33,400 nucleotides of DNA from Gloeocapsa sp. UFS-A4-WI-NPMV-4B04 (GTDB lineage: Bacteria; Cyanobacteriota; Cyanobacteriia; Cyanobacteriales; Chroococcidiopsidaceae). The stretch spans positions 1 through 33,400 of the forward strand of contig JAHHHE010000042.1 in assembly GCA_019359535.1 (NCBI GenBank). Reading direction: 5' to 3'. The position numbers and the translations under genes were made by a program. The notes under the pieces are model-generated. The model ran no database searches. It was not told where the DNA came from and worked only from the letters and a program-made list of their open reading frames with translations. Positions 88 to 12,818 of this stretch are shown here, one piece after another. Position 1 is the first letter of the stretch; each line of letters begins with the position of its first letter.

Positions 88-112
88 AAACGATATGTAA
101 ACTTACGCCTCA
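1..112 (+). mobile_element. Right end of an IS630-like insertion sequence inserted in the sensor kinase gene
   Basis: The transposase stop at 85-87 is followed by about 25 bp of non-coding sequence containing TGTAAACTTACGCC. This is where the terminal inverted repeat should lie. Kinase coding sequence begins immediately after, around the TACTA at 115-119. IS630/Tc1-type elements duplicate a TA dinucleotide, and a TA is available exactly at this junction. The other end of the element and its second TA are outside the window, so the exact boundary is inferred to within a few bases. Confidence 0.6.
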
Positions 113-670
113 GCCTACTAGAGTCATTGCAATTGGCAATCCTAGCAATAAAATCAATTTCACATTTGCGAGGTAATCGTCAATGTCTTTAAGACTTCGT
201 CCCATCTGCATATATCCCCAAGGCAGATTATCCTGAGTATGCAGCGCCAAAGAAATTTGATGATAACGATTTCCCTCAGCGTCCTTCAGCGTTTGCCAGG
301 TACCTTTGCCTGATTTTGGTAATCCTTCAGGCTGAAAACCTGCCACAGCAATCATTCGTTCAGAATTGTTTAACAACCGTATGTAGTAGTTGCCTTGGTG
401 AATTGCTCCTAAAGTGTGGCGTTTCTCCGTTTTTGGCAAGAGTTGTTGAGTAATTGGTTCTAAGCGTCCAGGTTGCTTTAATGTGTTTTCAATGCTGTCA
501 TGTAGCGTTCCGGCAACAGATTCTAGCTCTCGATCTAGGGTTTGCCAATGGGCGTGGACGATCGCCTGATATACCCCCAAACCACACAGTCCTAGAATAA
601 AACCCATCACGACTCCATACCAAAGAGCCAATCGCCAGCGAGTCAGGTGAAAAAGTTTATTTTGGTTCAT
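110..670 (-). pseudogene. rppB: Sensor histidine kinase of RppB/NrsS type, truncated by an IS element
   Basis: What remains is 186 codons. There is an N-terminal membrane helix (about residues 13-36, after a TRWRLALWYG stretch typical of this family), a periplasmic sensor region (about 37-168) and the start of a second membrane helix ending in AMTLVG. The frame then hits TGA. The HAMP, His-phosphotransfer and ATPase domains, normally another 250 or so residues, are missing. None of the three frames in bases 1-112 continues them; an IS630-like end lies there instead. The ATG overlaps the last 14 bp of the upstream regulator gene, so the two form a translationally coupled pair. The family senses metals: NrsS senses nickel in Synechocystis, and the related CopS senses copper. 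The truncated product could insert in the membrane but could not phosphorylate anything. Confidence 0.8.
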
Positions 671-1361
671 GACTGGGATTGAGACGATACCCTATACCAT
701 GTATGGTTTCAATTAAGCGATCGCCGCCTGTCTGGCTCAGTTTACGCCGCAGTAGACGCATTTGAGCCGCTACCACATTACTAATAGGTTCGGCACTCAT
801 TTCCCAAAGCTGATTTTGAATTTGGTCGCGGCTGACAATCTGATTCGGGTGCTGCATAAAATACTCCAGCAGCTGGAATTCTTTACTGGTCAAAGGAATA
901 ACCTGCTGCTCAGAATCCGCGTTTTGCAAACAAACCGTGTGGGTAGCGTAATCTAAAGTAAGGTTCCCGACTTGTAATTGTTGGGGTTGGAAGGAGGGCG
1001 ATCGCCTTTGCAATACTCTAAGTCTTGCTAGCAGTTCCACCATGCCAAATGGCTTTACTAGATAGTCATCTGCTCCCGCATCCAATCCTGCTACTTTATC
1101 TTCCATTCTGTCTTTGGCTGTCAGCATCAAAACAGGTAAAGGATTGCGTTGCTTCCGTAGCCGTTTGCATAGTTCTAATCCTGACATTCCTGGCAGCAAC
1201 CAGTCAAAAATAGCTAATGTATATTGAGTCCACTGGCTTTCTAGATAGTGCCAAGCTTCATTACCATCCAAAACCCAGTCAACAACATACTTTTCCTGGT
1301 TCAACGTTCGCTTGATAGCTGTACCCAAATCTGGCTCATCTTCGACTAGCAGAACTTTCAT
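657..1361 (-). CDS. rppA: OmpR/PhoB-family response regulator, RppA/NrsR type
   Basis: This is a 234-aa two-domain DNA-binding regulator. The receiver domain (1-120) has the acidic pocket at E7-D8, the phosphoacceptor D53 in a DWLLPGMSG context, T81 and K103. The winged-helix domain (about 130-230) ends in an ETIHGIGYRLNP wing. The run YVVDWV-DG-AW-YLE-QWT is characteristic of the cyanobacterial RppA/NrsR group. The 14-bp overlap with the kinase gene shows a two-gene operon. With the kinase broken by an insertion, this regulator is either orphaned, fed by another kinase, or active through small phosphodonors. The best guess for its targets is the set of three direct-repeat promoters at 2777-2815, 8427-8465 and 9391-9429. 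No such repeat lies in its own 172-bp upstream gap. Its metal (nickel or copper) cannot be decided from sequence. Confidence 0.88.
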   Translation of the reverse strand: MKVLLVEDEPDLGTAIKRTLNQEKYVVDWVLDGNEAWHYLESQWTQYTLAIFDWLLPGMSGLELCKRLRKQRNPLPVLMLTAKDRMEDKVAGLDAGADDYLVKPFGMVELLARLRVLQRRSPSFQPQQLQVGNLTLDYATHTVCLQNADSEQQVIPLTSKEFQLLEYFMQHPNQIVSRDQIQNQLWEMSAEPISNVVAAQMRLLRRKLSQTGGDRLIETIHGIGYRLNPSHEPK

Positions 1362-1533: not shown

Positions 1534-2154
1534 TTATAAAATTAGTAATTGCAAAACTAAAATAAGGGCAAGATGAACAGGATAAAAGGGATAAAACCAT
1601 TTACCTTTTCTGCCTTGCTGACTATTCCATAGGCTTAAAATAAGTGGAGTTAATCCTGCTAAAAATTGATGAAAGAAGAACCCAGGAAGCCAAAAAGTTA
1701 GTAAATTAAGTGAAATCCACTTGAGCCACCAAGTAATTCTATTAATATTCATCTCAGATAACAGAATTATTACAAATACTCCATAAGCTCCATATTCAGC
1801 ATTAGCTAGTTGAGCTAACGCTGCGAAAATTAATGTAAATAGATTGGAGCCAATTACCTTGTTAACTCTTATCGCTAGTAAACCAAAAGCTAATGTTGCC
1901 AAAATATTGAGAGCCGAAGAGTGAAAAGTCAAATAATATATTGGTTGACTTATTAATCCCAAAATAACGAGTCTTAATAGATAAAGGTTAAAATTATTAG
2001 TGTGCTTTTCTCCTTGTCCAATTAACCAGGCAAACAAGGGAAAACTTAATCTACCCAAAAATCTTAGAATAAGTATCTTTGGAAAAATAACTGCTCCTAT
2101 ATGATCGCACACCATTAAAACCGCAGCTAAAAGTTTAATTTGAAATGTTGTCAT
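1534..2154 (-). CDS. TraX-family integral membrane protein
   Basis: This 206-aa, very hydrophobic protein has about seven to eight membrane segments. The N-terminus (IKLLAAVLMVCDHIGAVIFP) and the following LRFLGRLSFPLFAWLIGQG are the conserved start of the TraX family. The family is named for the F-plasmid pilin N-acetylase, but chromosomal members in bacteria are mostly uncharacterised and probably act as membrane acyltransferases. The D-H in the first helix is the conserved polar pair. It lies between the two-component genes and the Cys-rich protein gene, with 172 and 249 bp gaps, so it is probably transcribed separately. Nothing ties it to metals apart from position. It is AT-rich, and I saw no HIP1 site in it. 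Confidence 0.8.
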   Translation of the reverse strand: MTTFQIKLLAAVLMVCDHIGAVIFPKILILRFLGRLSFPLFAWLIGQGEKHTNNFNLYLLRLVILGLISQPIYYLTFHSSALNILATLAFGLLAIRVNKVIGSNLFTLIFAALAQLANAEYGAYGVFVIILLSEMNINRITWWLKWISLNLLTFWLPGFFFHQFLAGLTPLILSLWNSQQGRKGKWFYPFYPVHLALILVLQLLIL

Positions 2155-2403: not shown

Positions 2404-2748
2404 CTACGCTGCTGATGCCATTTCGCGACAACTTTGAGCGCAGCGACGACAAGATTTAGCACAGCGTTTGCAGTGGTCACTATCGTGCTTCTCACATTCA
2501 CTCGCACAAAGTTCGCAGGCTTCGGCGCAAACACCGCACATTTGGGTGTATAGATCCGAGTTACGCGACATCAAACGAGCGCATAGCGCACAAGTATCAC
2601 TGCAATCACGACACCGCTTAATACATTCCGCCATCATCTGCACCATATCACCACTCAGGCAAGTATCAGCACAGTATTCGCAGTCACGCAGGCAATCTAG
2701 ACAAGCTTGAATGCAAGCCTCAAAATTTGATTGTTGAGTTGTATTCAT
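2404..2748 (-). CDS. Cytosolic four-helix-bundle copper-storage-type protein (Csp / DUF326-like), 21 cysteines
   Basis: This is a 114-aa protein with 21 cysteines spaced mostly as CxxxC and CxxC along predicted helices (for instance C12, C16, C19, C23, C26, C30). The pattern is that of the DUF326 / Csp3 family, whose four-helix bundles line their core with Cys thiolates and hold many Cu(I) ions. There is no signal peptide, so it should be cytosolic, like Csp3 and unlike exported Csp1. His is scarce (two near residues 88 and 92). It has its own promoter with the direct-repeat box at 2798-2815 and a -10-like TAGGTA 28 bp before the ATG, shared with the RND and DUF305 promoters. The likely role is buffering copper inside the cell while the RND pump clears the periplasm. 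An older name for such proteins is 'ferredoxin-like', but no iron-sulphur motif is present. Confidence 0.85.
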   Translation of the reverse strand: MNTTQQSNFEACIQACLDCLRDCEYCADTCLSGDMVQMMAECIKRCRDCSDTCALCARLMSRNSDLYTQMCGVCAEACELCASECEKHDSDHCKRCAKSCRRCAQSCREMASAA

Positions 2749-2776: not shown

Positions 2777-2815
2777 TACCTAGATTGACAAAGTGAAATG
2801 AAATCAAGATGAAAT
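2777..2815 (-). promoter_or_regulatory. Metal-regulon promoter of the Cys-rich gene: ATTTCAT direct repeat plus -10
   Basis: On the minus strand two ATTTCAT copies (2809-2815 and 2798-2804) are 11 bp apart, one helical turn. After 15 nt comes TAGGTA (2782-2777), a plausible -10 placed 28 bp before the ATG. The repeat stands where a -35 would be, as expected for an OmpR-family activator. The same layout is found at 8427-8465 and 9391-9429. Confidence 0.75.
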
Positions 2816-2859
2816 ATCAGATTAAACAACATTTATCTATAAATTACCTGTGATCGTAG

Positions 2860-3357
2860 TTAGCGATTAAAAGTGAAGCGACCGTTTACTTTTTCGCCAC
2901 TAACATCAGAAAGAATCGCAACATTGTATTTCCCTGATGCTTTCCCAGGTAGCAAAGCTGTGTAGTGTTTACCCTTAGCATCATAAGTGAGAGGAAGTGA
3001 CTTTTGTGTGCCATCAGGTAATTGAACTTTAGCTATTACTTTCGCATTAGGGATTGCTTCGTGGTTGTCCCCTTTTTGGAGATAGAAATCCATGTGAGTT
3101 CCATCAGTTTCAGGCTCAGATACAAACTCTAAATGATAGGAACCTGATTCTATCACTTGACCCCCTTTAGACTCGCTGGGATGCTCAGTTGTCTCGGTAT
3201 TTTCTGAGGATGCAGATGGAGTATTCTGGGTTGCTGTTTGTACGGGCGAAGCACTTGGGATGCTGGTCGAATTTGTGGATTGTGTACCATTTCTACAGGC
3301 TCCTAGAAAAATTAGCCCTACACTACTTACAATAATTAAATTTATTTTCAAATTCAT
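2860..3357 (-). CDS. Small lipoprotein of the RND metal-efflux operon
   Basis: This 165-aa protein has a lipoprotein signal (LIFLGAC, lipidated Cys at 21). A Ser/Thr/Gln-rich linker (22-65) follows, then a compact beta-rich domain (about 66-165). That domain contains SGSYHLEFVSEP, a THMDFYLQ stretch and a C-terminal SGKYNVAILSDVSGEKV. It resembles the immunoglobulin-like YtkA/FixH class of small periplasmic domains, but I do not recognise a precise family. It starts 39 bp after the RND pump gene and is clearly the third gene of that operon. It probably sits on the outer face of a membrane and handles metal or assists the pump. The H and M in its THMDF segment could bind copper; that is inference. 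Confidence 0.65.
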   Translation of the reverse strand: MNLKINLIIVSSVGLIFLGACRNGTQSTNSTSIPSASPVQTATQNTPSASSENTETTEHPSESKGGQVIESGSYHLEFVSEPETDGTHMDFYLQKGDNHEAIPNAKVIAKVQLPDGTQKSLPLTYDAKGKHYTALLPGKASGKYNVAILSDVSGEKVNGRFTFNR

Positions 3358-3396
3358 TTTGTCTTCGTCTTTTAGTTTTTGCTAATGGTTAAATCG

Positions 3397-6300
3397 TTAG
3401 TTTGAAATTTTTTGATGAATAGGTATATCTTGTGTAAATTCTTCATTCTGAAGTTTTGGCGTTGTCTGCTTAGGTATTAAGGTTTTCCCAAATTGGGCGT
3501 ACAAAGCCGGGAGAACTAACAGTGTTAACGCTGTAGAAGTAAACAAACCTCCCAATACAACAACTGCCAAAGGTTGCAGAATTTCCTTGCCTGCACCACC
3601 CCCAAGTACCAAAGGAGCTAAACCTAAAGCTGAGGTAAAAGCTGTCATCAAAATAGCGTTTAGCCGTTCCATTGAGCCTTGAATTATTACCTCTTTAAAA
3701 GGCACTCGCTCGGCGAATTTGGCATTGTAATTATCAACTAATAGCAAGCCGTTACGAGTTGCTACACCAAATAAAGTAATAAAACCGACTAACGAGGCAA
3801 CAGAAATAATCCCACCCGTAAGAGCAACTGAAATTACTCCTCCCACTAATGCCAAGGGCAAGTTAATCATAATCATGGCGGTTGAAGGAATGGATTTTAC
3901 TGTTAAATACATCAATACGGTAATTAGAACAAAAGCGATCGCACTAAAGACTAATATATTTTGGGTAGCTCGTTGTTCTGACTCAAATTGACCACCGTAT
4001 TGAATAAAGTAACTAGCAGGTAATTGTATTTGTTGCTTTACCTTTGAACTAATTTCATCAACTATGGAGCGTAAATCTCGCCCTGTAGCATTCGAGGAGA
4101 CTACAATCAGTCGAGAAATATTTTCACGGTTAATCGTATTTGGTCCTGTACCATATTCAATTTTGGCAACTTGAGCGAGGGGAATCTTTTGATTACTTGG
4201 AGTATCAATTAACAAATTGTTAATCATTTCTAAATTGCTGCGATCGCTTGACTGTAACCACACAACCAAATCAAAGGTTTGTTGCTCTTCCAATACTTGA
4301 GAAACTACTCGCCCGTTTAAAGCAGTTTCAATAGTTTCAGCCAGTTCTCTCACTGTTAAGCCATAACGAGCAGCAGCCGCTCTGTCAAACTGAATTTGGA
4401 TTTGTCTAATTGGTACTTGAGGTTCGAGTTGCAAGTCTACAACACCCTCAACTGTTTTCATCACCTCCTCGACTTGACTACCAATTGTGCGGAGTTGCTC
4501 TAAATCAGAACCATAAATTTTGACAGCGATCGCACTTCTTACCCCAGACAATACCTCATCCATCCGGTGAGAGATAAATCCGCCCACATTGGCTGCAACT
4601 CCAGGCAATCTAGCGAATTCCTCTCTCAGTTTTTCAATACTCGCTTCCCGATTTTTTATCCCTAATTCACTCAACTCCACATCCAGTTCGCCGAAGTTGA
4701 CACCGCCGACATCGCTATCGCCTGGTGCGCGCCCAGAACGCAGGGCGATCGCCTCAAATGCAGGATCATCCTTCAAGGCATCTTGAATCGCTCCTCCAGC
4801 GCGGTTAGTGGCTTCTAGAGAGACACCTGGATAGAGGTTTACGGCGTTGATTAGCGATCGCTCTTGAAACTGAGGTAAAAATACCCGTCCCAACGACGGA
4901 ACAATTACAATTGCTGCCACTAAACTTGCAGCAGCAACTACCAGAATTAGCTGAGAAGAACGCATCGAAAAATTCAAAACCGGACGATAAAGCCCTTTAA
5001 AAAATCTCGCTACCAGGGGTTCTCTTTCTAGTAAGCGACCTGATGGTAGTAAGATGGCACACAAAGCCGGAGTAACTGTTAATGCTGTCGCACTCGAAGC
5101 CAAAACTGCTACTAAATAAGCCACACCCATCGGTGTAAAAATCCGACCTTCTACACCAGCCAAAGCAAAAATGGGGGAAAAGACAACTACAGTAATTAAA
5201 GTTGCCCCAAATAGAGAATCCCGCACTTCCTGACAGCCTGCCAATACAACTTGTAGTGGTGATCGCGGTTGCGGTGAAAACTTGTTTTCCCGTAGAGAAC
5301 GATGGACATTTTCGGCATCTACAATTGCATCATCAACTGCTGAACCAATTGCTACAGCTAGCCCTCCTAAAGTCATTGTATTAAGCCCTTGCCCTAACCA
5401 ATTTAGAGCTAGCAATCCTAATAGCAAAGACAGGGGAAGTGCAGTAAGACTAACAACAAGAGTACGCCAATCCATCAAAAACGGGATGAGAATCAAAGCA
5501 ACAATAATGCTACCCTCAACCAGCGCTTCCTTAACATTTTCGATTGAGGCTTCAATAAAGTCTTCCTGACGAAAAGTGACGGTAACTTTAATATTTTTGG
5601 GTAAGCCTAATTTAACTTCTGCCATTGCCGCTTCAACTGCCCGCGTCACAGTCGGCGTATCGGCAAGTGGCTGTTTATTAACGATTAAAATAATTGCTTT
5701 TTGACCATTCAAACTAGCATCGCCACGCTTAAGAGCAGCGCCAATTTGCACATCAGCAACATCCCCTAATGTGATTGGTGTGCCATTGCGAGATGTAATG
5801 ACTGATTGGTTTAATTCTTCAATTGAGGAAATGCGTCCAACACCCCGAATTAGTAGTTCTGTGTCGGGATTAGTTAAATAGCCACCAGGAGCATTAACAT
5901 TAGCTGACTGTGCAGCTTTAGTAACGTCTTCTAAAGAGATATCAAATGCTCTTAGTTTGGCTGGATCAACCAACACTTGATACTGACGTACATCCCCACC
6001 AAACACCACCACTTGACTAACGCCTGGTACAGCCAAAAGGCGATTTGTCACTTGCCAATCGACAAGGCGGCGCACTTCCATTAAATTGTTTTGCGATTGG
6101 GAATTGGGGCTTGGGATTCCTTCCTCTTTGCTCCCCTGCTCTCCTGCTTCCACAGTGAAGGCATATTTAATAACAGTTCCGACAGGAGAACTGATTGGAG
6201 AAATTTGCGGCGTTTCGACTCCTTCGGGCAGCTTATCTGTGGCTTGCTGCAATCGCTCCGTTACCAGTTGGCGCGCTTGATAGATATCTGTTCCCCAGTC

Positions 6301-6591
6301 AAAAATGACCCTGACAACCGAGATACTTACAGCTGAGGACGAGCGTACCGTTGCAACACCAGTAGTTCCATTAATTGCACTTTCAACTGGTAAAGTGACG
6401 AGGGATTCAACTTCTTCTGGGGCGAGTCCTGGTGCTTCAGTTTGAATTTCGACTTGGGGTGGAGCAAAGCTAGGAAAAACATCTACGGGCATTTGGGAGG
6501 CGACACGAAATATCCAAACTGTAATCAAAGCAGCAGCCAGGATAACTAACCAGCGTCGGGCAATTGACCACTTGATGATGGCACTGAGCAT
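3397..6591 (-). CDS. Heavy-metal efflux RND pump (CusA/CzcA family)
   Basis: This is a 1064-aa inner-membrane proton antiporter subunit that drives metal out through a tripartite channel. The length is normal for the family. It starts with a single helix and MPVDVFPSFAPPQVEIQTEAPG, has paired periplasmic loops and two blocks of membrane helices. The first block carries AIGSAVDDAIVDAENVHR, the helix-4 motif of heavy-metal RND pumps whose acidic residues relay protons. The SHRMDEVLSGVR segment marks the HME group. Metal specificity is unclear: one Met is visible there, but I cannot confirm the CusA Met triad. Codons in 6091-6150 encode a low-complexity insert (EAGEQGSKEEGIPSPNSQSQ) in the first periplasmic part; it matches the G-rich repeats seen elsewhere in the window. 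It is the second gene of an operon, 43 bp after the adaptor gene. No outer-membrane channel gene is in the window. Confidence 0.93.
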   Translation of the reverse strand: MLSAIIKWSIARRWLVILAAALITVWIFRVASQMPVDVFPSFAPPQVEIQTEAPGLAPEEVESLVTLPVESAINGTTGVATVRSSSAVSISVVRVIFDWGTDIYQARQLVTERLQQATDKLPEGVETPQISPISSPVGTVIKYAFTVEAGEQGSKEEGIPSPNSQSQNNLMEVRRLVDWQVTNRLLAVPGVSQVVVFGGDVRQYQVLVDPAKLRAFDISLEDVTKAAQSANVNAPGGYLTNPDTELLIRGVGRISSIEELNQSVITSRNGTPITLGDVADVQIGAALKRGDASLNGQKAIILIVNKQPLADTPTVTRAVEAAMAEVKLGLPKNIKVTVTFRQEDFIEASIENVKEALVEGSIIVALILIPFLMDWRTLVVSLTALPLSLLLGLLALNWLGQGLNTMTLGGLAVAIGSAVDDAIVDAENVHRSLRENKFSPQPRSPLQVVLAGCQEVRDSLFGATLITVVVFSPIFALAGVEGRIFTPMGVAYLVAVLASSATALTVTPALCAILLPSGRLLEREPLVARFFKGLYRPVLNFSMRSSQLILVVAAASLVAAIVIVPSLGRVFLPQFQERSLINAVNLYPGVSLEATNRAGGAIQDALKDDPAFEAIALRSGRAPGDSDVGGVNFGELDVELSELGIKNREASIEKLREEFARLPGVAANVGGFISHRMDEVLSGVRSAIAVKIYGSDLEQLRTIGSQVEEVMKTVEGVVDLQLEPQVPIRQIQIQFDRAAAARYGLTVRELAETIETALNGRVVSQVLEEQQTFDLVVWLQSSDRSNLEMINNLLIDTPSNQKIPLAQVAKIEYGTGPNTINRENISRLIVVSSNATGRDLRSIVDEISSKVKQQIQLPASYFIQYGGQFESEQRATQNILVFSAIAFVLITVLMYLTVKSIPSTAMIMINLPLALVGGVISVALTGGIISVASLVGFITLFGVATRNGLLLVDNYNAKFAERVPFKEVIIQGSMERLNAILMTAFTSALGLAPLVLGGGAGKEILQPLAVVVLGGLFTSTALTLLVLPALYAQFGKTLIPKQTTPKLQNEEFTQDIPIHQKISN
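6091..6150. repeat. G-rich low-complexity insert, in frame within the RND pump gene
   Basis: On the plus strand this reads TGGGAATTGGGGCTTGGG, then CTCCCCTGCTCTCCTGC, the same sort of sequence found at 11757-11845, 20090-20135, 22373-22436, 26053-26139 and 31055-31116. It adds about 20 residues between the conserved 'YAFTVE' and 'LMEVRRLVDWQV' parts of the pump without a frameshift. Confidence 0.7.
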
Positions 6592-6634
6592 TTTTAGGAG
6601 TTCTTAGCTTCAGGGAAAGGAAATTAAAGTTTTA

Positions 6635-8320
6635 TTATTTCTGACTATTGACTCCTGACTTTTCGTTGTTAACGTGGTGCTTATCATTCCATACTGGCGA
6701 TTCGGTTGGAGAAACTGCCTCGCTGGCAGCTGCTCGTGTAGAGACAGGATAATCCTTGTGTGCAGAGACATCTGGCACGTAATTATTAACCCCTGCCGCT
6801 ACTGGAACTAACCGAGGTGAGGTGCGACGACCTACCCAGAAAGCCGCAGCGATCGCGCCCCCCACTGGAATGATTAACCACCAAGGTAACTGAGAGCCAT
6901 TACTAGAATCAGCAGTTTGAGATGGTGCAGATGTTTCGGCATGATCGTCTGAAGTTGTATTACCACCGCGCAAAGATTGGGCGTATAGTTGCATTGCGCC
7001 TTGAGTGACGACGCGATCACCATCAAATAAACCACTTTTAACTTCAACTCTGTCCCCAGACGTTTGACCTAACGTGACTTCAGCACTTTGGTAAGCATTG
7101 CTATTTTGGACATAAACAAGTTTTTTACCATTAGCTTCAACCACAGCCGAGCTTTTAATTGCCACAATAGCTGTAGGCGTTTGGTCTGTTAAAACTTCTA
7201 ATTGGGCAAACATTCCAGGCTTAAGCTGACCGCCAAAGTTATCCAGTTGAGCTTGTACTGGTACAACTCGTGTTTCCCCTTCCACAACAGAGCCAATTCG
7301 TTTAATTTGTCCCGTAAAAGTACGATTAGGTAAGCTAGCAATTTTTACACTTACTTTTTGACCCGTCTCAACTTTGTCTAAATCTTTTTCATAAATATTC
7401 GCCGTAGCAAAAACCTGGCTGTCATTCACAATTGTCATTAGCTTGCCGCCTGCATCCTCAAATGACTGACCAAGAGTAGCTTCTCGCTCGGCAATTTTGC
7501 CAGAGATGGGAGCAGATACTGTAACCAGTCCTTTAGCATCTGCACGGGTTCCCAGTTGAGCCAGCCGCGTCTGATAGGTGGTGTTACTAAGGCGGATACG
7601 GGACTGAGCCACCTCAACAGCTGACTGAGCGCGTTTAAGTTGAGCTTCTGCTTCTAGAACTTCGCGACGGCTAGTTGCTTTTGCTAGTTGCGCCTTACCT
7701 TCTGCTAAATGAGCAAGAGATTCCAGCATTTCGCGTCGTGCGATCGCTCCTGCTGTTACCAAATCGCGATCGCGGTCATACTGTTCCTGAGCTACTTTAA
7801 GTTCGGTGCGGGTTTGTTCGATATCAGCTGCGGCAATTTGACGCTGACGTTGCAGATTTTGTTGGGCTAGCTTTAAGTCTGCTTGAGCTTGCTGCAAATT
7901 AGCTTCTGCCTCTGCTCGTTTTTCTTGGGATTCTACGCGCAGTTCAACTAGATCAGGACTGGATAAAATAGCGACGGGTTGACTCGCTTTTACAGATGCA
8001 CCAGGTTCTACCAATAGTTCAACTACTGTGCCTGGAATCGGTGCAGTAACTTCTACTTTTTTGCTAGGCAGAGTTTCAATCTGTCCGGTAGTTTTGATGC
8101 CAACAGCCAGCCGAGTTTTGTTAACAGGCTCTACTTTAATTCCTAGCCGTTTAGCTGTTTCTGCATCAACTTGAATATCAGCAGCATGAGTAGCTTCGCC
8201 TCCTTGAAATTCATTTCCATGTCCGCCGTGAGCGAAAACTGGAGTACCCAGTAAAACAAAACTCAGGATTGCTCCAGAAATATAATGAGGCGCAATTGAT
8301 CGAGAGGAGTTACTGAGCAT
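6635..8320 (-). CDS. RND efflux periplasmic adaptor (CusB/CzcB family) with a C-terminal membrane helix
   Basis: This is a 561-aa membrane-fusion protein linking the RND pump to an outer-membrane channel. It has a signal peptide ending near FAHGG, a short His-rich start (HGGHGNEF) and a barrel-sandwich half (about 85-120). A long alpha-hairpin follows (about 120-245, Ala/Gln/Glu-rich coiled coil). Then come the second lipoyl half (VSAPISGKIAEREATLG), the beta-barrel (IYEKDLDKVETGQKV) and a membrane-proximal domain ending near 445. Beyond the usual end there is a Ser/Thr linker and a predicted membrane helix (LPWWLIIPVGGAIAAAFWVG), then about 55 polar residues; most family members lack this. 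It is the first gene of the adaptor-pump-lipoprotein operon. A promoter with the shared direct-repeat box lies 107-145 bp upstream. Confidence 0.92.
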   Translation of the reverse strand: MLSNSSRSIAPHYISGAILSFVLLGTPVFAHGGHGNEFQGGEATHAADIQVDAETAKRLGIKVEPVNKTRLAVGIKTTGQIETLPSKKVEVTAPIPGTVVELLVEPGASVKASQPVAILSSPDLVELRVESQEKRAEAEANLQQAQADLKLAQQNLQRQRQIAAADIEQTRTELKVAQEQYDRDRDLVTAGAIARREMLESLAHLAEGKAQLAKATSRREVLEAEAQLKRAQSAVEVAQSRIRLSNTTYQTRLAQLGTRADAKGLVTVSAPISGKIAEREATLGQSFEDAGGKLMTIVNDSQVFATANIYEKDLDKVETGQKVSVKIASLPNRTFTGQIKRIGSVVEGETRVVPVQAQLDNFGGQLKPGMFAQLEVLTDQTPTAIVAIKSSAVVEANGKKLVYVQNSNAYQSAEVTLGQTSGDRVEVKSGLFDGDRVVTQGAMQLYAQSLRGGNTTSDDHAETSAPSQTADSSNGSQLPWWLIIPVGGAIAAAFWVGRRTSPRLVPVAAGVNNYVPDVSAHKDYPVSTRAAASEAVSPTESPVWNDKHHVNNEKSGVNSQK

Positions 8321-8426
8321 CGTGGTATAAGGTCATTGAGTACCAAGAGGTGGAGTTGTACTTTGTCGGCATTCTTAGAAAGGTATTTTTGTTCTGCGCT
8401 TTCTTGGGCGCTAGAAATGCACTAAG

Positions 8427-8465
8427 AATTCAGTTTTCCACATAAAAATGAAATCAGGATGAAAT
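8427..8465 (-). promoter_or_regulatory. Metal-regulon promoter of the RND operon: ATTTCAT direct repeat plus -10-like hexamer
   Basis: On the minus strand ATTTCAT occurs at 8465-8459 and 8454-8448, 11 bp apart. After 15 nt comes TGAATT (8432-8427), a weaker -10. The sequence from the first repeat onward (CATCCTGATTTCATTTTT, then GTGGAAAACT) matches the DUF305 promoter almost base for base over about 32 bp, far beyond the repeats themselves. Confidence 0.75.
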
Positions 8466-8543
8466 CGTGTGGCGGAGGACGAAGTAATTACCGCAGCATT
8501 ACTCCAAAGCTATTTGGAAGATATTACCAACGACTAGATTGGC

Positions 8544-9233
8544 TTAGTTTTTATACCAAGCTTGTCTCCACTGCTGCATTTGCTCAATTTCTACCTCTTG
8601 TGCTTTGACAATTTCTTGGGCTAATTGCTTAATTTCGGGGCGCTTAGACTTACTCAAGGCATCTTCAGCCATCGTTACAGCTCCTTGATGGTGAGGAATC
8701 ATGGCATTAATAAACCGCAAATCGAACTGAGCATCGGCTGTTCCTAAGTATTTGCTCATCTTCATGCTTTGCATTTGCTCAGATGACATTTCCATCATCT
8801 GTCCCTGTGAAGTGTTATAAGCCATTAATTGTCTAGCTTGGGGATACCAGGCTTGTCGCCATTGCTTCATTTGAGCAATTTCTTGATTTTGAGATTTAAT
8901 AATGTCGTCTGCTAGCTGTTTAATCTCAGAGCGTTGAGATTTCTGCTGCGCTGCTGAAGCCATTTCTACCGCTCCTTGATGATGCATTATCATTGCGTCG
9001 ATGAACCGCAGCTCGTAGCTAGCATCTGCCGTACCTAAATCCATTGCCATGCTGTGATTCATGCCACTGTGATCAATGTTCTGCTGACCGCTTATATCAG
9101 TTGCAGTAGTGTTTGCAGCTTGGTTTTGATTGTCATTACTAGAACAGGCTGTCAGAACGCCGCTTGTTAAAGAAGCGATCGCTAACATAGTAAACGCCAA
9201 AAAACTAAATTTTAAAGAAATAGGTTGCATCAA
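8544..9233 (-). CDS. DUF305 lipoprotein with two tandem domains (CopM-like)
   Basis: This 229-aa protein has a lipoprotein signal (LTAC, Cys 30), a short Asn/His/Met-rich linker and two DUF305 domains (about 66-131 and 162-229). Each has the ferritin-like helical motif RFI-AMI-HHQGAV with paired His (84-85 and 181-182) and each ends in EI-QMKQWRQAWY or a near match. The halves are so similar that an internal duplication is evident. The linker between them is rich in Met (QMMEMSSEQMQSMKMSK), a classic Cu(I)-binding style. In Synechocystis the DUF305 protein CopM is encoded with the CopRS system and binds copper in the periplasm, as I recall. Here it is encoded next to the RND operon and has the same type of promoter, which supports copper as one substrate of the cluster. 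Confidence 0.85.
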   Translation of the reverse strand: MMQPISLKFSFLAFTMLAIASLTSGVLTACSSNDNQNQAANTTATDISGQQNIDHSGMNHSMAMDLGTADASYELRFIDAMIMHHQGAVEMASAAQQKSQRSEIKQLADDIIKSQNQEIAQMKQWRQAWYPQARQLMAYNTSQGQMMEMSSEQMQSMKMSKYLGTADAQFDLRFINAMIPHHQGAVTMAEDALSKSKRPEIKQLAQEIVKAQEVEIEQMQQWRQAWYKN

Positions 9234-9390
9234 CTTTGATTTTTAGATACTCAATATTTGATTTAAACGGTGGTTTAACTGTCTTATTCAGTAATCTCCA
9301 GCAGATACAGATTCAAGGAGTTATTTATGTGATTTGGAGATTAATCCTAAAACTGCAAGTTCTTCACAGCGATGTGCTGCGCCACTTACT

Positions 9391-9429
9391 ACCTAGCTTT
9401 CCACGCAAAAATGAAATTAGGATGAAATA
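9391..9429 (-). promoter_or_regulatory. Metal-regulon promoter of the DUF305 gene: ATTTCAT direct repeat plus -10
   Basis: On the minus strand ATTTCAT occurs at 9429-9423 and 9418-9412, then 15 nt, then TAGGTA (9396-9391), the same hexamer as at the Cys-rich gene. It would leave a leader of about 150 nt before the ATG at 9233. The rest of the 336-bp gap (9234-9569) holds the leader and the start region of the lyase gene; I see no other gene or clear structure there. Confidence 0.75.
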
Positions 9430-11057: not shown

Positions 11058-11361
11058 AACACTCAACCACCAGTCGTCAATACTCAACCACCAGTCGTCA
11101 ATACTCAACCACCAGTCGTCAATACTCAACCGCCAGTCGTCAATACTCAACCACCAGTCGTCAATACTCAACCACCAGTCGTCAATACTCAACCGCCAGT
11201 CTTTGATACTCAACCATCAGTCTTTGATACTCAACCATCAGTCTTTGATACTCAAGCGCCAAGCTTCAACACTCAACTACCAGTCTTCAATACTCAACCA
11301 CCAGTTTTCAACACTCAACCGCCAGTCTTCAACACTCAACTACCAGTCTTCAATACTCAAC
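11058..11361. repeat. 21-bp tandem repeat array, about 14.5 units
   Basis: The consensus is AATACTCAACCACCAGTCTTC-like, 21 bp long, starting at 11058. There are fourteen full units to 11351, then a partial unit that ends six bases before the rsmB ATG at 11367. Units 1-6 are almost identical with GTCGTC ends, units 7-9 have GTCTTTG ends, and units 10-14 have GTCTTC ends, so local copying has spread variants. No spacer separates units, so it is not CRISPR. The period divides into three heptamers (AATACTC, AACCACC, AGTCGTC), like cyanobacterial STRR DNA. Because 21 is a multiple of three, frames on both strands stay open and give spurious 60-codon frames with a 7-residue period. It takes up the whole divergent intergenic region. 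Confidence 0.95.
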
Positions 11362-11366
11362 AATCA

Positions 11367-12818
11367 ATGGATAATCCTCGCCAGCTAGCATTTGTCACCC
11401 TCCGAGATGTTCATAAAGGAGCTTATGCTGATGTTGCCTTAGAGCGAGTGCTACGCAATGCTAATTTAAGCAATGCTGATCGCCGTTTGCTTACAGAATT
11501 GGTTTACGGCAGTGTAAGGAGAATGCGATCGCTTGATACCCTAATTGACCAATTAGCTAAAAAAAAAGCTCACCAACAACCCCCCGAACTTCGGGCAATT
11601 CTCCACTTAGGCTTATATCAACTGCGCTACCTAAATCACATTCCCGCTTCTGCTGCTGTTAATTCCACAGTTGAGCTAGCGAAGGAAAACAGATTTTCGG
11701 GACTAACTGGGTTTGTTAATGGTTTATTGCGGCAGTATACTCGCCTGACGGAAGGCAGAGGAGCGGGGGAGCAGAGGAGCAAGGGAGCAGAGGAGCAAGG
11801 GAGCAGAGGAGCGGGGGAGCGGGGGAGCGGGGGAGCGGGGGAAGAGTCACAATTAGTCCAGCATTACCAAGATCCGTTACAACTGCCGTCTAATCCAGTG
11901 GAACGCTTGGGGATTTTGCACAGTTATCCTGACTGGATTATTGAAGTGTGGTTAGAACAGTTGGGTTTAGCGGAAACAGAGCAACTGTGTGAATGGCTGA
12001 ATCAACCACCAGCAATTGATCTGCGGATTAATACTCTGCGTAGTTCGATTGAAACAGTTGAAGCAGCGATGCAAGCAAGTGGCGTATCTGTAAGTCGCGT
12101 TCCCTATCTACCCCAAGCTTTGAGATTAATAGGAAGTACAGGTTCAATTCAAAATCTGCCTGGGTTTAGCGAAGGTTGGTGGACGGTGCAAGATAGTAGC
12201 GCCCAACTCGTGAGTTATTTACTCGATCCGCAACCGCGTGAGGTAGTGATTGATGCTTGTGCTGCACCCGGAGGAAAGACAACGCATATCGCCGAATTAA
12301 TGCAGGATGAAGGAACAGTATGGGCTTGCGATCGCACTGCTTCTCGACTCCGCAAACTTAAGGAAAACGCGGCTCGACTACAACTGCAATCAATTCAAAT
12401 TTGCATTGGTGATAGTCGTAATTTGCCGCAGTTTAAAAATTCTGCTGATCGCTTATTACTAGATGTACCTTGCTCTGGGTTAGGAACTTTACACCGCCAT
12501 GCCGACGCTCGTTGGCGGCAAACACCAAAATCTGTTCAGGAACTTGCTGTTCTTCAATCAGAACTACTATCACAAGCGTCTACCTATGTCAAGCCTGGAG
12601 GTACTCTGGTATATGCTACCTGCACACTACATCCCTTAGAAAATGAAGGTGTAATTCAACCGTTTCTCACTCACCACCCTGAGTGGCAAATTGAGCCTCC
12701 TGCGCCTGATTCGCCTGCTTTTGCTTTTAAGACAGCCGAAGGTTTTGTCAAGGTTTGGCCGCATTTACAGGCGATGGATGGGTTTTTTATGGTGCGTTTA
12801 AGGAAAGAAAGTTATTAA
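11367..12818 (+). CDS. rsmB: 16S rRNA (cytosine-967-C5)-methyltransferase RsmB
   Basis: This 483-aa protein methylates C967 of 16S rRNA using S-adenosylmethionine. An N-terminal NusB-like helical domain (about 1-135: RQLAFVTLRDVHKGAYADVALERVL) is followed by the Rossmann methyltransferase domain. SAM is bound by DACAAPGGKT (about 298-307). The two catalytic cysteines are in DVPCSGLGTLHRHAD and in YATCTLHPLENE. Between the two domains, codons for about 30 residues come from a G-rich repeat (11757-11845) and give a low-complexity Gly/Glu/Arg linker (GAGEQRSKGAEEQGSRGAGE), placed where a loop can tolerate it. The start codon lies six bases beyond the 21-bp repeat array, and I see no good ribosome-binding site in that array. 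Confidence 0.93.
   Translation: MDNPRQLAFVTLRDVHKGAYADVALERVLRNANLSNADRRLLTELVYGSVRRMRSLDTLIDQLAKKKAHQQPPELRAILHLGLYQLRYLNHIPASAAVNSTVELAKENRFSGLTGFVNGLLRQYTRLTEGRGAGEQRSKGAEEQGSRGAGERGSGGAGEESQLVQHYQDPLQLPSNPVERLGILHSYPDWIIEVWLEQLGLAETEQLCEWLNQPPAIDLRINTLRSSIETVEAAMQASGVSVSRVPYLPQALRLIGSTGSIQNLPGFSEGWWTVQDSSAQLVSYLLDPQPREVVIDACAAPGGKTTHIAELMQDEGTVWACDRTASRLRKLKENAARLQLQSIQICIGDSRNLPQFKNSADRLLLDVPCSGLGTLHRHADARWRQTPKSVQELAVLQSELLSQASTYVKPGGTLVYATCTLHPLENEGVIQPFLTHHPEWQIEPPAPDSPAFAFKTAEGFVKVWPHLQAMDGFFMVRLRKESY
11757..11845. repeat. G-rich 8-bp repeat array inside rsmB
   Basis: Units such as GGAGCGGG, GGAGCAGA and GGAGCAAG recur with an 8-bp period for about 89 bp. An 8-bp unit shifts frame with each copy number change unless changes come in threes, yet the rsmB frame is kept through it. 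Confidence 0.85.

Follow-up and report, generated by a model that had tools for sequence, protein, structure and literature searches.

A shared direct-repeat promoter at three metal-gene units of a Gloeocapsa genome points to a copper-resistance regulon of the CopRS/RppAB kind

Does a promoter element that recurs upstream of separate metal genes in Gloeocapsa sp. UFS-A4-WI-NPMV-4B04 tie them into one regulon, and, if so, which regulator and which metal does it serve? We examined a stretch of 33,400 nucleotides from this genome (hereafter "the window"), where an initial annotation had noted the element. We conclude that the window very probably encodes a copper-resistance regulon of the cyanobacterial CopRS/RppAB type, in which a box and an extended −10 drive three units, because the neighboring proteins match CopM, CopB, CopA, CopC, CopR, and CopS, and because the copM promoter of Synechocystis plasmid pSYSX has the box at the same distance.

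Results

Three Metal-Gene Units Share a Box That Is Otherwise Absent from the Assembly

A pattern scan of the window identified perfect copies of ATTTCAT-N4-ATTTCAT on the minus strand at 2798-2815, 8448-8465, and 9411-9428, upstream of csp (DUF326), cusBA-copC, and copM (DUF305), respectively. The genes of this region are:

8544-9233, minus strand: copM-like gene for a DUF305 protein (PF03713, 1e-40; above the cut-off of the NCBIfam CopM model NF049983; 42% to Synechocystis CopM)
6635-8320, minus strand: copB/cusB-like RND periplasmic adaptor (48% to Synechocystis CopB)
3397-6591, minus strand: copA/cusA-like heavy-metal RND pump (64% to Synechocystis CopA)
2860-3357, minus strand: copC-like lipoprotein (50% to Synechocystis CopC, slr6044; no Pfam family)
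2404-2748, minus strand: csp, DUF326 Cys-rich protein, Csp-like copper store (21 Cys in 114 aa; PF03860, 1.1e-10)
1534-2154, minus strand: TraX-family protein, without box
657-1361, minus strand: RppA/CopR-type OmpR-family response regulator (NF041734, 421 bits; 65.5% to CopR), without its own box

The order within the CopB-CopA-CopC HME-RND operon is the same as in Synechocystis. The csp product resembles the Csp copper storage proteins (Csp3; PMC5171941) in being a Cys-rich DUF326 protein, but falls below the cut-off of the Csp1-family model TIGR04401 (43 versus 100 bits).

The initial annotation had described one box design at three metal promoters, followed after exactly 15 nt by TAGGTA (csp), TGAATT (cusB), or TAGGTA (copM), and we confirm both the perfect copies and the spacing. 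Scanning the whole 5.15 Mb assembly retrieves only these three perfect boxes, all within 6.6 kb and each preceding a metal gene, versus one match to a reversed-pattern control. As this control yields on average ~0.14 matches per comparable genome (8 matches in 57 genomes), chance is excluded as the source of the three copies. A scatter of boxes over unrelated promoters, which would have spoken against the original proposal, is thus not seen in this genome. Also as proposed, the regulator gene and traX lack the element: the window scan found no copy upstream of either, with up to 3 mismatches allowed.

When the box is combined with the downstream element TG-NN-A-NNN-T described below, the whole assembly contains three perfect sites and none at 1-2 mismatches; at 3 mismatches the 13 matches (8 in controls) are near background. 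A looser scan for TTTCATN5TTTCAT with one mismatch was uninformative, returning 52 genome matches and 64 reversed-pattern controls; since it is swamped by background, the evidence rests on the perfect boxes and the composite motif. Generic scans for sigma-70 promoters and terminators gave little or nothing beyond what shuffled sequence gives. Further regulon targets could be missing from the assembly, whose completeness is 84%. Elsewhere in the window, a short-repeat array (ACTCAACCACCAGTCGTCAAT-like, 11060-11370) precedes an rRNA methyltransferase-like gene.

The Box Is Followed by a Probable Extended −10 Element

We aligned the sequences downstream of 98 non-redundant perfect boxes, left after thinning and preceding many gene families. 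Counting from the 3' end of the box, conservation peaks at T8 (86%), G9 (84%), A12 (93%), and T16 (86%). The pattern nAnnnT with the hexamer starting 10 nt after the box is present at 83/98 boxes, whereas any other register accounts for at most 22, and the longer TGn-nAnnnT at the 10-nt register is present at 67/98. The conserved element is therefore probably an extended −10, TGN-NANNNT, in a register that was derived by inspecting these same 98 boxes and rests on their conservation. The three promoters of the window are then predicted as follows:

9395-9428, minus strand: copM promoter (box 9411-9428, TG 9402-9403, inferred extended −10 hexamer AAAGCT 9395-9400)
8432-8465, minus strand: cusB (copB) promoter (box 8448-8465, TG 8439-8440, inferred hexamer AAAACT 8432-8437)
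2782-2815, minus strand: csp promoter (box 2798-2815, TG 2789-2790, inferred hexamer CAATCT 2782-2787)

In most cases the first T of a canonical hexamer is absent, as would be expected of an activator-dependent promoter. In class II activation by OmpR-family proteins, the pho box of PhoB is a direct repeat of 7-4-7 layout and 11-bp period that replaces the −35 and ends ~10 nt before the −10 hexamer. The boxes described here have the same layout, and differ in the half-site, in the extended TG, and in the hexamer without its usual first T.

These positions disagree with the initial annotation, which took TAGGTA/TGAATT/TAGGTA as the −10 and was probably 5 nt out of register. That the hexamers at 15 nt are the true −10, with TGN-NANNNT as an extra spacer element, would fit the conserved T at the 16th position, an A at the 17th in 56% of the boxes, and a T[AG] peak at exactly that offset. 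We nevertheless consider it unlikely: the same T also closes the alternative hexamer, the T, A, and final T of that register (T16, A17, T21) occur jointly at only 9/98 boxes, and a 10-nt gap is the one generally known from PhoB-type boxes. A literature search for mapped transcription starts of copM or nrsB found none among the papers covered. A third in-phase ATTTCAT as the source of the conserved TG was rejected on a position-by-position reading of the 98 boxes.

The cusB and copM promoters match over ~32 bp, and on that ground the three boxes might be duplicates that have spread and lost their common regulation. We regard this as highly improbable, since the positions common to the three boxes coincide exactly with those of the composite promoter, and the csp copy keeps the TG, A, and T in spite of a different spacer and different flanks. 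In addition, Gloeocapsopsis crepidinum LEGE 06123, a member of the same family, retains the csp box at another location in its genome: the nearest csp homologue (79%) lies there on a different contig, with a perfect box and TGT-CAATCT. As a general rule, csp with a same-strand box had to be rejected; outside the family, where a csp homologue has a perfect box nearby, the two are on opposite strands. Because boxes in more distant relatives are only sometimes near csp, and then in opposite orientation, the place of csp in the regulon is supported for this family only.

The Box and Gene Set Correspond to the Copper System of Synechocystis

The closest known counterpart is the CopRS regulon of Synechocystis sp. 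PCC 6803 (copMRS, copBAC), which has the same box, the same spacing, and matching CopM/B/A/C/R/S proteins. On pSYSX (NC_005232.1) the gene order is copM-copR-copS-copB-copA-copC. The copM promoter there reads ATTTCATCCTGATTTCAT-TTTGCTTTGCCAGACT, its box being identical to that of cusB in the window, and the copB promoter reads ATTTCATCTTGGTTTCAT-ATTCCTGTGAAACACT, with one mismatch in the box; both keep the box spacing and TGN-NANNNT. A putative CopR site, TTCATN4-5TTCAT, has been described for the cop promoters as well as for the region preceding mntC and the stretch that separates nrsRS from nrsBACD (PMC4182526). This shorthand is not exact, as the sequence reads TTCAT-N6-TTCAT, or ATTTCAT-N4-ATTTCAT. 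The idea that one box joins the three metal promoters of the window is thus borne out by its match to the Synechocystis CopR box, and also by the co-occurrence with RppA/CopR-type regulators reported below. The Gloeocapsa arrangement differs from that of Synechocystis in several respects: copM, cusBA-copC, and the regulator genes form separate units, the regulator has no box and stands outside a copMRS operon, with its genes not adjacent to copM, the regulon gains csp, and the kinase gene is interrupted.

At 421 bits, the regulator scores well above the NF041734 cut-off of 250 bits and is named RppA by NCBIfam, the name that PGAP also gives to Synechocystis CopR; NCBIfam groups CopR and NrsR together under it. 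Its recognition helix, SNVVAAQMRLLRRKL, is one residue from those of the CopR orthologues of Synechocystis relatives and likewise one residue from that of their NrsR-like protein, and the helix of the only other RppA-like regulator of the genome (contig C44, 258 bits) is much more different. In a tree of 94 regulators, the window protein does not group specifically with CopR as opposed to NrsR, and copper as the signal is therefore proposed from the cargo.

The regulator could accordingly be an orthologue of NrsR, with a regulon that answers nickel or cobalt and not copper. The NrsRS (RppAB) nickel regulon of Synechocystis involves the same NCBIfam families and a near-identical recognition helix, and NrsR-like promoters of Synechocystis relatives have degenerate TTTCA repeats: the box at their NrsR-like locus reads TTTTCACCTGAATTTCAT, followed by CTGGCAAACT with a spacing 1 nt longer. 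We judge this quite improbable, given that the cargo of the window is of copper type (CopM, a CopC-like lipoprotein, and a Csp-like store), that no nrsD-like gene was found among the linked genes examined, and that copMRS and copBAC are not induced by nickel in Synechocystis (PMC4335983). The nickel regulon differs in its cargo and in its imperfect box, which lies 1 nt further from the TG. In one Synechocystis relative the degenerate box stands before an nrsB-like gene (L172:3505), with the TG one nucleotide further away than at cop promoters.

A 2026 review (PMC13421787) assigns to Synechocystis RppA (sll0797) a motif of quite another kind, AAMAWCTCYYWCCCC. This motif counts against our reading of the box; we see no way to reconcile the two, and it should be kept in view.

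For a copper regulon, we propose a mechanism that combines the box, gene set, regulator co-occurrence, and −10 register read from sequence with binding, activation, and a copper signal by analogy with Synechocystis CopRS. The phosphorylated RppA/CopR-type regulator would bind the two ATTTCAT half-sites head-to-tail, one helical turn apart, at the place of a −35, and would recruit RNA polymerase to the extended −10 (TGN-NANNNT), a weak element with its hexamer beginning 10 nt beyond the box. The regulator would thereby turn on copM, a periplasmic copper binder, cusB-cusA-copC for efflux, and csp, a Csp-like cytosolic copper store. We regard the system as a new and well-supported case of the known CopRS/RppAB copper control, to which it adds a rule for the composite promoter, the proposed shift of the −10, csp as a member, and a kinase gene that is broken. 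A site known from one model strain becomes a searchable rule at the level of the phylum, in which box, fixed gap, and extended −10 together pick out regulon members with almost no background. A copper-store gene joins the regulon, and the corrected placement of transcription starts is testable.

The Sensor Kinase Gene Is Split by an Insertion Sequence

At its start, the window holds the end of an insertion sequence and part of a disrupted kinase gene:

110-670, minus strand: rppB/copS sensor kinase gene, 5' half, interrupted by an insertion sequence (encoded N-terminal half 47% to CopS)
1-121, no strand assigned: repeated insertion-sequence end (1-117) and target duplication CTAG (118-121)

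We found no intact CopS-type kinase beside the regulator; the 3' part of rppB begins near the end of another contig (C56), where it follows the opposite end of an insertion sequence. CTAG is common to both rppB junctions, the codons continue in frame between the parts, and both halves are at contig ends. Four other contig places carry a 100% identical copy of positions 1-121 (five places in the assembly in all), and the ends resemble what we take to be an IS701-type element with a YTAR target. The break would be a real insertion, carried either by the strain or by a fraction of the population sampled. A split sensor kinase gene may change how this strain reacts to copper: the regulon could have stopped responding, be expressed constitutively, or take its signal from another kinase. 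The initial annotation was right that the regulator gene and traX have no box, but had missed the split kinase, as well as the boxes at regulators of related loci.

Boxes Co-occur with RppA/CopR-Type Regulators across Cyanobacteria

We further compared perfect boxes with RppA matches in 291 cyanobacterial genomes, taking scores of ≥340 bits as strong RppA, a threshold chosen after viewing the score list, at its drop. The 57 genomes with strong RppA contain 121 perfect boxes, in 46 genomes, versus 8 reversed-pattern matches, and the other 234 contain 37 boxes, in 32 genomes, versus 34 controls (Fisher p = 3e-22 on genomes with a box, related genomes being treated as independent); 11/57 strong-RppA genomes have no perfect box. 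Among the matches listed, 71/147 box places are ≤15 kb from a strong RppA, compared with ~1% expected by chance. Comparative genomics thus supports a link between the box and RppA/CopR-type regulators. Within 80 named RppA neighborhoods, the box precedes RppA itself in 29 loci (about a third), and also CopM, CusB, CusA, the CopC-like lipoprotein, and other genes.

In other cyanobacteria the box additionally precedes genes of unknown role. Across Nostocales (loci L045, L064, L070, L076, L079, L081, and others), perfect boxes with TG-NN-A-NNN-T stand before DUF2808 genes (39 boxes in 20 loci), which hints at unexplained members of the regulon. SLH/OprB porin genes, at L076:4042-5763 and at five loci like it, are preceded by the box as well, so that RppA may have a role in the envelope.

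Since the box is carried before functionally unrelated genes, the RppA regulon might be wider than the copper and nickel genes of Synechocystis. We tentatively raise, as a possibility that we hold to be the less probable one, that RppA/CopR-type regulators throughout cyanobacteria use one fixed composite promoter, ATTTCAT-N4-ATTTCAT-N7-TGN-NANNNT with a hexamer lacking the usual first T, before unrelated genes (DUF2808, OprB porin, and possibly others), so that the regulon would serve a wider envelope stress and, in the present strain, would operate without its own kinase. In one genome without strong RppA (G110:C43:1813-1863), head-to-tail repeats of ATTTCATTATA in 11-bp steps form a false box array.
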